Source of the DNA: Diacronema lutheri
Taxonomy: Eukaryota; Haptophyta; Pavlovophyceae; Pavlovales; Pavlovaceae
DNA: 64,000 bases
NCBI GenBank assembly: GCA_019448385.1
Contig: JAGTXO010000066.1
Location: 112,109-176,108 of the forward strand
Direction: 5' to 3'
Shown here one piece after another: positions 46,741-52,399 of this stretch; position 1 is the first letter of the stretch, and every line of letters starts with the position of its first letter. A program made the position numbers and the translations under genes. The notes under the pieces are model-generated. The model was not told the origin of the DNA and did no database searches. It saw nothing but the letters and a program-made list of their open reading frames with translations.

Positions 46741-49177
46741 ATGTCACCCACTCCGGCCACGATGCATCGCCGAGCCCTTCGGCTGGCCGTTGCCGTCGCG
46801 CTTGCGGCGACGGCGTTCGGCGCGCGCGCGCCGCGCGTGGGGCGCGTGGCCTCGGCGTCCGCGCTCACGCCGCGTCCCGCGTCGGCCGCGCCCGCGATCG
46901 ACGTGCCCGTCACGCCCGCGCCGTCGACGGCCGCGACCACGTCGGCGCGCGTCGCCGACAAGACGGGCGGCGCGGCGGTGCTGCTCGAGGGCGCGACGGT
47001 GAGCATCGGCGACGCGGATCTGATCACGGGTGCCAACCTGCGCGTCGGCGTCGGCGAGCGCTGGGGCCTCGTCGGCGTCAACGGCGCGGGCAAGTCGACG
47101 ATCATGAAGGCGATTCTGCGCAACGACCCGCGCTTCGCCGCGCGCGCCGACTCAATCGCCGTGCGTGACGGGACGATTGCGATCTCGCAGACGTTGTCGG
47201 TGGGATACCTTGAGCAAACCGCCGTGACCGGCTCCGACCGCACCGTCAAGGAGGAGGTCATGTCGCGCATGGATCGGTTGGTCGCCGCGCGCACGGCGCT
47301 CGAGCGCGCGTCCGACGCCGTCTCGCGCGGCGACATCAGCGACGCAGCGGTCGAGGCGCTCGCAGACGCGGAGGCGGCCTTCAGCGCGGCGGGCGGATAC
47401 GACTCGGACAAGCTCGTCGCCGGCGTGCTCCGCGGCCTCGGCTTCACTGATGCCGACCATGAGCGAGCGTGCTCGGAATTTTCCGGCGGTTGGCGTATGC
47501 GGATTGCACTCGCGCGCTTGCTGCTCTCGTCGCCCGAGCTGCTGCTGCTCGACGAGCCGTCGAACCACTTGGACTCGTCGGCCAAGCGCTGGCTCGGCAA
47601 CTACCTCAAATCTTACGATGGCACCCTCCTCCTCGTCTCGCACGACGAGTCGATCCTCGCGGCCGCCGTCACGTCGATCGCAGAGGTCGACTCCGCGACG
47701 CGCACGATTGAATCGTTCAAGTCGATGAGCCTCGAGCAGTGGCGCGTCGAGCGCGAGGCGCGCAAGGCTCGCCGCGCCACTGAGGACGAGCGCCGCCAGG
47801 CCGAGATCGACCGGCTGCAGAGTTTCGTCGACCGTTTCGGCGCAAAGGCGACCAAGGCGACTGCCGCAAAGTCCAAGGAGAAGGCGATCGAGCGGATCCG
47901 CGCGGCGGCGCCGCCGTCGCCCGACGCGAGCTTCGCCGCCGAGGGCGGCGGCTCGCAAGCTCGCAAGCTCGTGCTGCGCGCCGCTGCCAAGTCGGCGGTG
48001 CGCCAGCTGGAGCTGCGCGGCGCCTCGTTTGGATGGACGTGTGCGCCCGCCGGCGCGGACGGCGGCGGCGCGGCGGACGGCGCGGAGGGCTGCACGCCTG
48101 ACGTGGGCGGCGTGCCGCTGCTGCGCGACGTGCATTTGAAAGTCGAGCGCGGCTGGCGGCTCGCCGTCGTAGGACCAAACGGCGCAGGTGCGTGCCGCGC
48201 GCCGCGCCGGCGCGCCGCGCGCCTGCCCGCACGCCGCCGCCCGCGCCGACCCGCCGTGCGCCCCCACCCCCGCTCGCGCGCGCGCGCGTGCCGCAGGCAA
48301 GTCGACGCTGCTCGCTGCCATCTCGGGCGCGTTGCCGCTGGCGGCGGGCACGCGCGAGGTGGGCGATGGCGTCGTGCTCGGCGTCTTCCGGCAGGACCTG
48401 GCGCAGGACCTCGACCAGGCGGCGCGGCCCGTCGACCTCGTGCAGCGCGCGGCCTGGGAGCACGACGGCGAGTCAACCGTCGAGGACGCGTTTGGTGCAC
48501 TCGGTGCTCTCGGCCTGTCCGGCGCGCGCGCGTCCGGCCGGACTATTGGACAGCTGTCGGGCGGCGAGAAGGCGCGTGTTGCGCTTGCCACCTTCTCGGT
48601 CAAGCCGCACAACCTGCTGCTGCTCGACGAGCCCACGAACCACATCGACGCGCAGATGGCGGCCGTGCTCGTCGACGCGCTTCGCGACTTCCCCGGCGGC
48701 GTCATCACAGTCTCACACGACCGCGCGTTCGTCGAGGCGATCGAGCCGACGCACGTCGTGAGCGTGCGCGACGGGCGCGTGCGTATGGAGGAGCGCGCGC
48801 TGCGCGACGACGACTGGGTGCACCCGGACGCGGCGGAGGCGTCGGATGCAACGGCGCAGCAGCGCGCGCCTGTGCGCGCGGCGGCGGCCGCGGCGGCGGC
48901 CGCGGCCGCGCCCGCGCGCGGCGACGACAAGGCGCAGCGCAAGGCGCGCACGGCCGCCGAGAAGAGCGCCAAGGCGCTCGAGCGCCGAATGGACAAGCTC
49001 GCGCAGGATGTGGGCGCGCTCGAGGCGTCGCTCGCCGGCGCGGGCAGCGATTACACGCTGGCCGCGCGGCTGCAGGCGCAGATTGACGCGACCAACGCCG
49101 AGCTGGACGCGACGCTTGTCGAGTGGGAGGCCGCCGACAAAGTGGCCAACGCGCCGCAGGGCGAGGTGCCGTCGTGA
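46741..49177 (+). CDS. ABCF: ABC-F family ATPase, probably plastid-targeted
   Basis: Two exons, 46741-48187 and 48297-49177; 775 residues. The N-terminus MHRRALRLAVAVALAATAFG looks like a signal peptide and is followed by a basic, Ser/Ala-rich stretch, so plastid import is likely. Two ABC modules: GVNGAGKST, EFSGGWRMR and LLLLDEPSNHLD in the first; GPNGAGKST, QLSGGEKARV and LLLLDEPTNHID in the second. The linker between them is charged. There are no membrane helices, so this is a soluble ABC-F (GCN20/EttA/Uup type) acting on ribosomes or their stress control. The intron (GTGCGT donor) splits the second Walker A between PNGA and GKST. The C-terminus is a coiled coil as in Uup. Confidence 0.92.
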
Positions 49178-49254
49178 GGCCTGCCGCCCAGCGGACTCCG
49201 AGCTCCGAGTCTGATTTCCGACCTCCGTCCGCCCTAGAGATTATTGATTACACA

Positions 49255-49635
49255 AGGGAGTGTGAAATACTAACGACGCTTACAGGCGGGTCAGCAGGAG
49301 GGGCGCGCACGGGGCCGAGGCTGGACAAACGGAGCGAGCGAAAGGGCGCACGCAACATCATGAAATCGATTTCTGGGTGACCCGTTTCCCGGTGAGATTT
49401 AAATATCAGCGCCTTCCTTTTCAGGCCGCCGACTTTTCCCGGCGATGCCCGAGCTCTTGCGCTCGGCCGGGGAGACTCGGTTCGCCACCCACTCGCTGTT
49501 CAACCTTCTCGTCCTCGCCGCCCACGGGACCAGTACAGGAGACCTCAGTCGTCGCAATGTATGCATCGTCGGTGCGATTGATCGCATGCGCTTCCTGAGC
49601 CTTCCGAGGCGCAACTTCGCGACGGGCCGGCGCCG
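49255..49635 (+). repeat. Left inverted arm
   Basis: Pairs with 50862-51202 in reverse. Matching runs include the block around 49440-49630 with only a few mismatches. TGAAAT occurs at 49263-49268 and 49361-49366 and brackets an insertion absent from the right arm. Confidence 0.85.
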
Positions 49636-50786
49636 TGCAGCGAATGTATGCCACGCTCGCCATGCATCCATGCCACGCTCGCCATGCACGCTGGCAAGTT
49701 CGTCAGGCGGCTCGTCGGCGGACGGGGATGTGCCGTCGGGGCTCTACCCTCGAGCAAATTACTCCACCGCGACCGCGTGCGCGCTGCTCAGGGCATGCAT
49801 CGACGCCAACTACGCGGCGGACGTCGTCAACCGCAACGCTGGTGTGGCGATGGTTGGCGTGCGCGCCGCGCTCGAGCAGTACTTCGAGGAGTCGTCGGTG
49901 CAGACTCCCGGCGTCGACACGCTCACTGCTTGGTTAAAGACGACGCTGGAAGGGAGGGCGCCAACGACCAAGGTGTGCGCGCGCGCGCGCGTCTCGCGCG
50001 CGCGCCGCTCTGATGTGCGCGGCTCGCGGCGCGCGCGCGAGACGCCTTGTCGCGACGCCGCCTCATGCCGCGCAGACCGGAGCCGGCGACGACCCGGCGA
50101 ATGGCATCGTCCAGCAAAGGGAGACTCTGCTCCAGAATCTCATCGAGAAGTACAACGAGCAGCTGAGAGAGGCGAAGCGCGTGAAGAATTTGCCCAAGGA
50201 GGCGCTAGCCGCGCGCGCTAGGCTCGGCAACCAGATGCACCTGGATATGCTCCAGGGCACGCCCGTTGGCGGCGGCAAGAAGAAGCGCAAGCAGCAGACG
50301 GAGAGCGAGGCTGGCGAGGACTTGGACGAGGAGGAAGCGCCCGCCGCCGAGACGGAGCGCAAGCGCGGTGGCCGCGCCGTGCCGGCCGACTACGGCGCGG
50401 ACCAGGCGGCGCTCATTCAGATGATGAAGGAAGGCGATGCTGCGCGTTTGGAGGAATCCGTGCTGAAGCGAGAGGCTCAAGCGAAGGCGGCTGCTGCAGC
50501 TGACGAACGCGCTGCGCTCGACCGGGAGGCGATGAACAAGCGTCACGCCGAAGAGCTTGCACAGCGGCGCGAGGCGGAAGCAGGACTGCGCGGCATCGAG
50601 AAGGTTAAGGCCGAGATCGAGATGCGGAGGCTAGCTTTGCAAGAGAAGCAGCGCGAGGATGCAGAAAGGGCCGCAGTACGCAACGCGCAGCAGCAGCAGA
50701 GCATGCTCGACAACAACACCAAGATGACGGCGAGCGTCCTTGATATCGTCGCGAAGCTCACCGAACAGCTGAACAAGAAGTCGTGA
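49445..50786 (+). CDS. Coiled-coil protein carried between the inverted arms
   Basis: Two exons, 49445-49972 and 50076-50786, joined in phase 0 (donor GTGTGCGC, acceptor GCGCAG). The frame opens in the left arm at 49445, giving up to 412 residues; starts at 49586 or 49670 are also possible. The part unique to the interior begins with a small helical domain (CALLRACIDANYAADVVNRN, VGVRAALEQYFEESSV, TLTAWLKTTLEG), then a Lys-rich segment (GGGKKKRKQQ), acidic residues, and a 130-residue coiled coil ending VLDIVAKLTEQLNKKS. No transposase, nuclease or Myb motif is seen. The layout, a small domain plus a basic linker and charged helix, resembles accessory DNA-binding proteins of Harbinger-type elements, but this is only an analogy. 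Confidence 0.6.
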
Positions 50787-50861
50787 ATGCGTGCGTGCGC
50801 ATGCGCGAGGAGCGGCTTACCGTCCCGCTTCCTGCCGGCGTTGTCCCGGTCGAAGCGGATC

Positions 50862-51202
50862 CGGCGCCGGCCCGTCGCGAAGTTGCGCCTCGGAAGGCTC
50901 AGGAAGCGCATGCGATCAATCGCACCGACGATGCATACATTGCGACGACTGAGGTCTCCTGTACTGGTCCCGTGGGCGGCGAGGACGAGAGGGCTGAACA
51001 GCGAGTGGGTGGCGAACCGAGTCTCCCCGGCCGAGCGCAAGAGCTCGGGCATCGCCGGGAAAAGTTGGCGGCCCGAAAAGGAATGAAAAATTTATCAACG
51101 AAATCTGGCGGGCTTTTCGGGCTGCTTTCTGGCCGGCGCTGATATTCAAATCTCACCGGGAAACGGGTCACCCAGAAATGAGAAATCGATTTCACACTCC
51201 CT
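50862..51202 (-). repeat. Right inverted arm
   Basis: Reverse complement of the left arm, without its 92-bp insertion but with about 50 additional bases near 51070-51135. A frame equivalent to the opening of the cargo gene (MPELLRSAGETRFATHSL) is present on the minus strand at 51052. Confidence 0.85.
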
Positions 51203-51376
51203 ATATTCCTAAAAATTATGGCTTCCGAGAAAAATTGCTGGCGGTTCGCCGCGGCGTAACGTGGCGAGTGTCACCGTCACGCCAGTTTGCTACAAAAGCG
51301 TGACTTCCCGAGGAAAGGGAGGAGGCTTCCCTGCTGCAGGCCCTTCCGAGGCGGCACGAGGGGCGCAGGGCGTGCG

Positions 51377-52399
51377 ATGGAGGCCAGCGGCGCGAGCACG
51401 GAGCGCGCGGTGGAGCTGAGCGCGTTGGCGTTCGCGGCCGGTGGCGCGAGCGAGGAGGCGCGCGCGATAGAGCCAGGCGCGCCGGCCCCCGCTTCCGTCG
51501 GCGCGAGCGAGGAGGCGCGCGAGATGGAGCCAGGCGCGCCGGCGCCCGCGGCCGGCGGCGCGGGCTCGGCCGCGTCGGCGGCGCCGCCCGAGGCCGCCGC
51601 CGCCGTCGCGGCTACCGAGTTCGCAGATATTGGCGACACGGTGCACTGCATCTTTTGCCTCGAGGAGGCCGACGCGGAGCACGAGCTACTCAAGTGCTCG
51701 CCCTGCGCGTGCTCGGGCACTCTCACGTCGATCCACACGCGCTGCCTGACCAAGGACATTGAGCACAACCTGCGACTCGAGTGCCCCATCTGCCGGTACC
51801 CGTACCACTACAAGGCCAAGGTGGCGAGTCAGGGCCTGCTGCTGCGCACGCGCAAGTGGCTCTCGCGCGTGCGCAACGCGCGAATGTGCGCGCTCGCGCT
51901 GCCAACCGCCGCGGCGCTCATCATGCTCGGCATCATCCTCACGGCCGTCGGCACGCGCTCGCCGAGCGGTGGCTGGGCGCCCTTCGTGTACGCTGGGATG
52001 AGCATCTGCATGCTCCTCTTCTTCTACACGGGAGTGAGCGTCAACGAGCTGCCCGTGCGCGTGATCCGCGTCGTGCTCTACGCGCCATCGCACGCGCAGC
52101 TTGAGCTCTTCGAGGAGAACAAGGAGGCGTGGGTGCGGCTGATGAAGGAGCGGGGTGGGATGGGCACGGTCGGCGCGGCGCTTCTCCGAGGCAAGCGCGC
52201 CGACGCCGACGAGGTCGAGGTGCTCTCACTCGACTACCCGGTCACGCTGCAGATGATGGCTGACCGTGAGGTGCCGCCCGCCCTCGCGGCGCTCATCGTG
52301 CGGACAAACGAGGCGGCGAAGCTCGCGGAGCAGCAGGCGACTGCCGAGGCGCAGCAGGTCGCGCGCGCGGCCGACACCACTGCCTCGCACCGCGCCTAG
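51377..52399 (+). CDS. RING-CH (MARCH-type) membrane E3 ubiquitin ligase
   Basis: 340 residues from the ATG at 51377. The RING-CH finger at about residues 93-140 has CIFC, then KCSPCACSGTLTSIHTRCL and ECPICRYPY, that is the C4HC3 order that defines MARCH ligases. Two membrane helices follow (CALALPTAAALIMLGIILTA and APFVYAGMSICMLLFFYTGV). MARCH proteins ubiquitinate membrane proteins for endocytosis or ER degradation. The N-terminal 80 residues are low complexity with an internal duplication of about 17 residues (ASEEARAIEPGAPAPAS / ASEEAREMEPGAPAPAA). The gene starts 174 bp after the mobile-element-like unit. Confidence 0.88.
   Translation: MEASGASTERAVELSALAFAAGGASEEARAIEPGAPAPASVGASEEAREMEPGAPAPAAGGAGSAASAAPPEAAAAVAATEFADIGDTVHCIFCLEEADAEHELLKCSPCACSGTLTSIHTRCLTKDIEHNLRLECPICRYPYHYKAKVASQGLLLRTRKWLSRVRNARMCALALPTAAALIMLGIILTAVGTRSPSGGWAPFVYAGMSICMLLFFYTGVSVNELPVRVIRVVLYAPSHAQLELFEENKEAWVRLMKERGGMGTVGAALLRGKRADADEVEVLSLDYPVTLQMMADREVPPALAALIVRTNEAAKLAEQQATAEAQQVARAADTTASHRA

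Follow-up and report, generated by a model that had tools for sequence, protein, structure and literature searches.

As described in the Harbinger literature, transposition of PIF/Harbinger elements requires both ORF1 and the transposase, and ORF1 binds the terminal inverted repeat (TIR) or end region (PMC2836001, PMC9710019). ORF1 brings the transposase to the nucleus, and insertion is accompanied by a 3-bp target-site duplication (TSD) (PMC2836001, PMC9710019, PMC9179366). Across Harbinger families, the Myb-like proteins keep similarity only in restricted parts (PMC9179366). Harbinger families are present in Tisochrysis lutea, according to one report (PMC5963040). For Diacronema lutheri, the available text of the genome paper attributes the majority of annotated repeats to LTR elements and LINEs and contains no word beginning with "transpos" (PMC8379373). 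The available portions of three sources hold no description of a transposase-less element with an accessory gene (PMC9179366, PMC9710019, PMC5741667).

The element described here lies in a 64,000-nucleotide stretch of contig C7 (the window) from this marine alga, whose genome of 43,492,796 bases (43.5 Mb) in 103 contigs was searched for relatives. It spans 1,948 bp, has inverted arms, and encloses a two-exon gene. With a probability of about 0.62, it is a non-autonomous TIR transposon of a small family that has kept an accessory-type gene and is served by a transposase in trans. A search of publications, as distinct from repeat databases, found no description of this family, which is defined by its terminus AGGGAGTGTGAAAT.

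Structure of the Element

The features of the element and its flanks, with window coordinates, are as follows.

49252–49254, no strand: left flank ACA, a possible TSD with one mismatch to the right flank ATA
49255–51202: the element, 1,948 bp
49255–49267, plus strand: left terminus AGGGAGTGTGAAA, broken by a repeat insertion
49268–49365, minus strand: 98-bp insertion, the truncated end of a high-copy LINE-like repeat
49366–49635, plus strand: remaining left arm, an inverted duplicate of the right end
49670–49972, plus strand: exon 1, 101 aa, with the probable true start MPRSPCTLASSS and three helices predicted at low confidence
49973–50075, plus strand: GT-AG intron, 103 bp, with borders also in C36 and C89
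50076–50786, plus strand: exon 2, 236 aa and stop, with the basic patch KKKRK and a long predicted C-terminal helix
50861–51052, minus strand: open frame MPELLRSAGETRF..., 64 residues, reading inward from the right end
50862–51202, minus strand: right arm, with the right terminus AGGGAGTGTGAAATCGATTTC read inward from 51202
51203–51205, no strand: right flank ATA

The boundaries 49255 and 51202 are those that a first-pass annotation of the window had proposed. That annotation had also described long, near-identical inverted arms. The identity is real, with 218 of 222 bp shared between 49414–49635 and 50862–51083 and 44 of 45 bp between 49369–49413 and 51135–51179, and the arm-to-arm match is far above chance (E 4e-111). 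However, it is broken by the 98-bp insertion and by gaps of 51 bp and 7 bp, which are right-arm segments absent from the left arm. An Rfam search of 49000–51400 gave no match. By our reading of the frames, the neighbours of the element are an ABC-F-like gene, which ends at 49177, and a RING-CH-like gene with a frame spanning 51287–52399. The early part of the latter holds a 57-bp tandem repeat in three copies (51400–51570).

A Small Family with 3-bp Target-Site Duplications

When the whole genome was searched for AGGGAGTGTGAAAT with at most one mismatch, 13 places were found, and 12 of them form six inverted pairs, on C7, C18, C36, C60, C69, and C71. The single unpaired place is on C47, and the reversed pattern, used as a control, gave four places. 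When up to three mismatches were allowed, a search with the 21-bp terminus found 12 places, compared with none for its control. Eleven of these are family ends, and the twelfth is an unpaired match with three mismatches on C89; the sole family end missed is the left one of the window copy, which is interrupted. Perfect 3-bp TSDs flank five of the six copies (ATT, AAA, ACT, ACT, and AAT), and the window copy has ACA/ATA, with two of three bases matching. When the right flanks are permuted, only 2 of the 720 arrangements match equally well. The dispersed copies therefore have inverted termini, with 12 of the 13 end matches paired, and a TSD of fixed length. The first-pass annotation had suggested a non-autonomous DNA transposon and had held that arms restricted to this locus would speak against one; five further end pairs with 3-bp duplications elsewhere in the genome back the suggestion. 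No empty insertion site was seen, and a search for family relatives in viral contigs gave 88 pattern matches, of which none was confirmed.

Four copies are shorter than the window copy, with lengths of 1085 bp (C36), 720 bp (C69), 528 bp (C60), and 278 bp (C18). Aligned to C36 as the reference, the C69, C60, and C18 copies give seven blocks at 98.4–100% identity and four further, shorter blocks (27–97 bp) at 93.8–96.6%; these counts exclude off-register blocks of 78–81% in a GC-rich intron repeat. The internal deletions differ among the three aligned copies. The four short copies are deletion derivatives that agree at 98–100% across most of the sequence they share, and this identity points to recent movement. 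The C36, C60, and C69 copies have in common an early in-frame TGA in the gene, and their exon-1 stretches differ at 0–1 of 219 sites, so they cannot have been moved by an intact product of their own gene. Their recent movement was probably in trans.

Two other arrangements of family sequence were observed. On C69 (L027, 526085–527196), a family element is nested in opposite orientation within a fragment of another, and its left end has additional inverted TTTCTGGGCGAGAT repeats. On C53 (L088, 157600–158060), a diverged left end and gene start adjoin a long CT microsatellite, with inverted CTACACCATGGG / CCCATGGTGTAG on either side.

Origin of the Long Arms

Among the six copies, arms of several hundred bp occur only in the window copy; the ends of its relatives are short (~50–80 bp) and unequal. 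In the window copy, the left end belongs to the right-end type (GGGTGACCCGTTTCCC...), whereas C36, C18, C60, and C69 have a different left-end type (GGGTGGCCGTTTCTGGG...). The long arms are thus secondary: an inverted copy of the right end took the place of the original left end and leader, which gave the long symmetric arms. The replacement may have come about by aberrant gap repair or by a nested insertion such as that on C69. Since the LINE-like fragment is in the left arm only, it probably landed after the duplication.

This 98-bp insertion (49268–49365) is flanked by TGAAA and is unrelated to the element. Its core of ~95 bp has at least 45 more matches in the genome (40 full length, 97–100% identity). 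An initial search with the arm returned at least 48 matches (40 of 471 candidates scored), three of them the element on the window contig. The other 45 all fall on the LINE-like stretch, and the idea of a large family, taken from the arm copy count, was dropped. In the repeat copies that were read, one end is fixed (AATACTAACGACGCTTACAG...) and the opposite end is variably truncated; the nine bases next to the fixed end recur 60–1500 bases downstream in 14 of 35 copies, compared with 2 of 35 for control 9-mers. The fixed end, variable truncation, and repeated flank suggest that the high-copy repeat is of LINE type. Its copies are near-identical, some are clustered on C15, C34, C37, and C99, and the family has apparently been active recently.

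The Cargo Gene

The gene between the arms encodes 337 aa in two exons. The first-pass annotation had recognised it as a single spliced gene. The intron is of the GT-AG type, and its borders recur in C36 and C89; of five relatives, exon 2 was found in these two. The intron measures 103 bp in the window, 141 bp in C36, and 99 bp in C89, and all three retain GT and AG. The annotation had also taken the intron as a sign of a host-type gene, which it does not prove because transposon genes can have introns as well. The reading frame that seemed to open within the left arm results from the inverted duplication and does not mark the gene start. This longer frame, which runs from 49445, passes through duplicated right-end DNA, and in C36, C60, C69, and the diverged C53, the gene starts just inside the copy's own, different left end, at the position that corresponds to 49670 in the window. 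The order in these relatives is a left end of ~80 bp, a leader, and the ATG, with the N-terminus MPRVQPSAAAS... in C36, C60, and C69 and MPCVQPP... in C53.

Genome searches gave five exon-2 matches (E<=0.01) and seven exon-1 matches (E<=1). All lie within or next to copies or fragments of the element (C7, C36, C60, C69, C53, and C89), including two on C53 up to ~220 bases outside the stretch read there (L088), and at these thresholds, no host parent gene was found away from them. The cargo gene therefore looks like the family's own rather than a recent capture, as far as genomic matches tell. Its start near the left end in four copies and its intron in C36 and C89 show that it is old within the family. 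These findings bear on a Pack-type origin, in which a MITE-like element picked up a fragment of a host gene and the protein has no role in transposition. Captured genes usually sit in carrier elements without a transposase, the setting seen here, and no domain match links the cargo protein to transposition. However, with matches restricted to the element copies and fragments, a host donor copy not found, and a gene of some age, the capture that the first-pass annotation had proposed is not supported, and we consider it unlikely.

A second alternative is that the window copy is a domesticated remnant, an immobile gene kept by the host with the arms left over. The window copy alone, of those read, has a full open frame, and its TSD is imperfect. 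In exon 1, it differs from the broken copies at 20 of 219 sites (8 synonymous and 12 nonsynonymous), and pN (0.073) is mildly below neutral relative to pS (0.144). This signal is weak, since it comes from 73 codons and the ratio of ~0.5 mixes lineages. Moreover, the arms are 98% identical and thus recent. Domestication is highly improbable in our judgement.

The 64-residue frame at 50861–51052 is possibly a relic of a second gene, or a chance frame. The longer frame containing it (50543–51052) has no Pfam match. Outside the window, the 64-residue frame has weak matches at C34:94505 and, in an element copy or fragment, at C89 and C36. The match at C34:94505 is antisense to a charged helix-like frame. 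A second gene in the right arm was set aside.

Predicted Structure of the Cargo Protein

The first-pass annotation had predicted a small helical domain, a basic linker, and a long coiled coil. The long helix is modelled: AlphaFold, run on the single exon 2 sequence without an alignment, predicted a helix of 114 residues (exon 2 residues 122–235, block pLDDT 84–97) within a whole model of mean pLDDT 79.5 and pTM 0.32. A heptad test of hydrophobic positions across the C-terminal 132 residues detected no periodicity (p = 0.50), so a coiled coil is not established. The basic patch is present as KKKRK at residues 169–173, which we take to resemble a nuclear localisation signal. For exon 1, a model from four near-identical sequences has three helices at low confidence (block pLDDT 47–61, mean pLDDT 49, pTM 0.33). 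Exon 1 has neither a Pfam nor a PDB sequence match at E<=10, and the only Pfam match of exon 2 at that threshold is Mitoguardin (E 3.9). With no Pfam or PDB match and a poor model, the label "Myb-like" for exon 1 is a guess from three predicted helices and their position.

Search for a Transposase

Pfam scans of the main frames of the window element gave no transposase, in agreement with the first-pass annotation. That annotation had advised a check for the arm beside a transposase elsewhere. One candidate came up, a 9.1-kb stretch on C71 (981761–990860) that has both family ends and a perfect AAT/AAT duplication. Its interior contains an OTU-like fragment (E 0.075, below the cut-off), a stop-free frame for a MULE-like transposase (E 2.2e-5; 25.2 bits, under the cut-off of 27.6), and, by our reading, a Copia-like polyprotein between two 562-bp direct repeats of 99% identity. 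The MULE-like sequence, at 985620–989358 (L030, L084), has next to it the weak OTU-protease-like frame and, at 990093–990920 (L068), a C/H-rich frame without a Pfam match.

With both ends, a perfect duplication, and a stop-free transposase frame, C71 could be the autonomous copy, and the family would then consist of MULEs with AGGGAGTG ends mobilised by the C71 element. However, the C71 transposase belongs to another family, with a piece at >=92% identity at 12 or more loci. Ten other matches to the C71 right-end query run from base 1 and stop at base 542 of 621. In the two of these that were read, on C69 and C30, other sequence continues exactly where C71 changes to the family end; in a C34 stretch read for the same purpose (L085), the junction is absent. 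On the left of C71, a high-copy repeat with 39 other long matches begins directly after the end, and 36 of these start at base 51. In addition, MULEs usually make TSDs of 8–11 bp, and those of the family are 3 bp. C71 was thus rejected as an autonomous copy, with its MULE gene cut at one junction and a different high-copy repeat on the other side. Its sequence is read here as a stack of foreign repeats between family ends, and the MULE explanation is largely refuted and barely tenable. No transposase tied to the family ends was found in this genome.

Comparison with Resident Harbinger Elements

The genome contains 14 matches to the Harbinger transposase domain (PF13359). None of the 14 lies between paired family ends, and no 21-bp terminus occurs within 1.5 kb on either side of these loci at up to six mismatches. 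Inverted pairs at L076 and L079 (GGCCCGTTCCC), which we take to be Harbinger ends, and at L081 (GCTTTGCGCTGG) are unlike the family termini. Two loci that are near copies of each other, L077 and L078, have the transposase frame tail to tail with a frame that bears a helical, charged region, and the upstream part of that frame occurs in the same arrangement at L079. The helical-frame screen took 8 of the 14 loci, and L077 was the only one to score; L078 is outside those eight.

Similarity to the cargo protein was sought at these loci. The full cargo has no significant match to the frame with the helical region next to the transposase at L077 (best E 0.81), and exon 2 has none at the 14 loci (best E 2.8). 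When exon 1 was compared with a 126-residue part of L079, 316 of 2000 shuffles scored as high. This lack of similarity is weak counter-evidence because Harbinger Myb-like proteins conserve restricted parts only. The typical Harbinger TSD is TWA, whereas those of the family begin with A and do not fit TWA. The family has the 3-bp TSD of PIF/Harbinger, and no DDE_Tnp_4-type transposase with the same ends was found. Since this defining transposase was sought and not found, the element is not filed as Harbinger.

Proposed Mechanism and Significance

The element carries no cutting enzyme and is thus probably moved by one made elsewhere. In the favoured reading, that of a non-autonomous transposon with an accessory-type gene, a DDE transposase from elsewhere would cut at AGGGAGTGTGAAAT and reinsert the element. 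The cargo protein, with its three-helix region, basic NLS-like patch, and long helix, would be a retained accessory protein. By analogy with the Myb-like ORF1 protein of PIF/Harbinger, it may bind the ends or subterminal repeats of the TTTCTGGG type and hold the transposase there. An accessory protein of a transposon family was among the options in the first-pass annotation, and it fits best, although the family transposase was not found.

A more radical version, that of an undescribed family whose members encode only an end-recognition protein and borrow the catalytic subunit of unrelated resident transposons, is quite unlikely. If true, it would mean a division of labour between elements, in which the recognition gene, and not the transposase, is the defining selfish gene.

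The compact genome of this haptophyte thereby gains a TIR family that is small and has been active recently. A copy with an accessory-type gene but no transposase would make it simple to test whether an element benefits from an end-recognition protein by itself. The window copy also illustrates a route from a short-TIR to a long-arm element through duplication of one end.

Relation to Known Systems

MITEs are non-coding. The family resembles MITEs and mPing in that its short copies retain their ends, have lost internal sequence, are nearly identical, and need a partner. However, the window copy still has what looks like an intact gene with an intron, and the six paired ends found amount to a very low copy number. 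Like Pack-type transposons, the element is a non-autonomous carrier that encloses a gene; unlike them, it has no host parent gene that could be found, and the gene is old within the family. The several-hundred-bp arms of the window copy recall long-TIR or foldback-like elements, but such arms are present in only one of six copies, and the relatives have unequal ends of ~50–80 bp.

PIF/Harbinger elements, with their Myb-like ORF1 (Ping/Pong and Harbinger3_DR), share several features with the family. These are the 3-bp TSD, the terminal inverted repeats, a separate non-transposase gene with a small predicted helical region, and short derivatives moved in trans. They differ from the family, which is without a transposase gene, has other termini and another TSD sequence, and displays no detectable sequence similarity; a Myb fold in the cargo is only a guess from a low-confidence three-helix model. 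Membership is therefore not assigned, and on this analogy, the best reading is that the element is organised like PIF/Harbinger.
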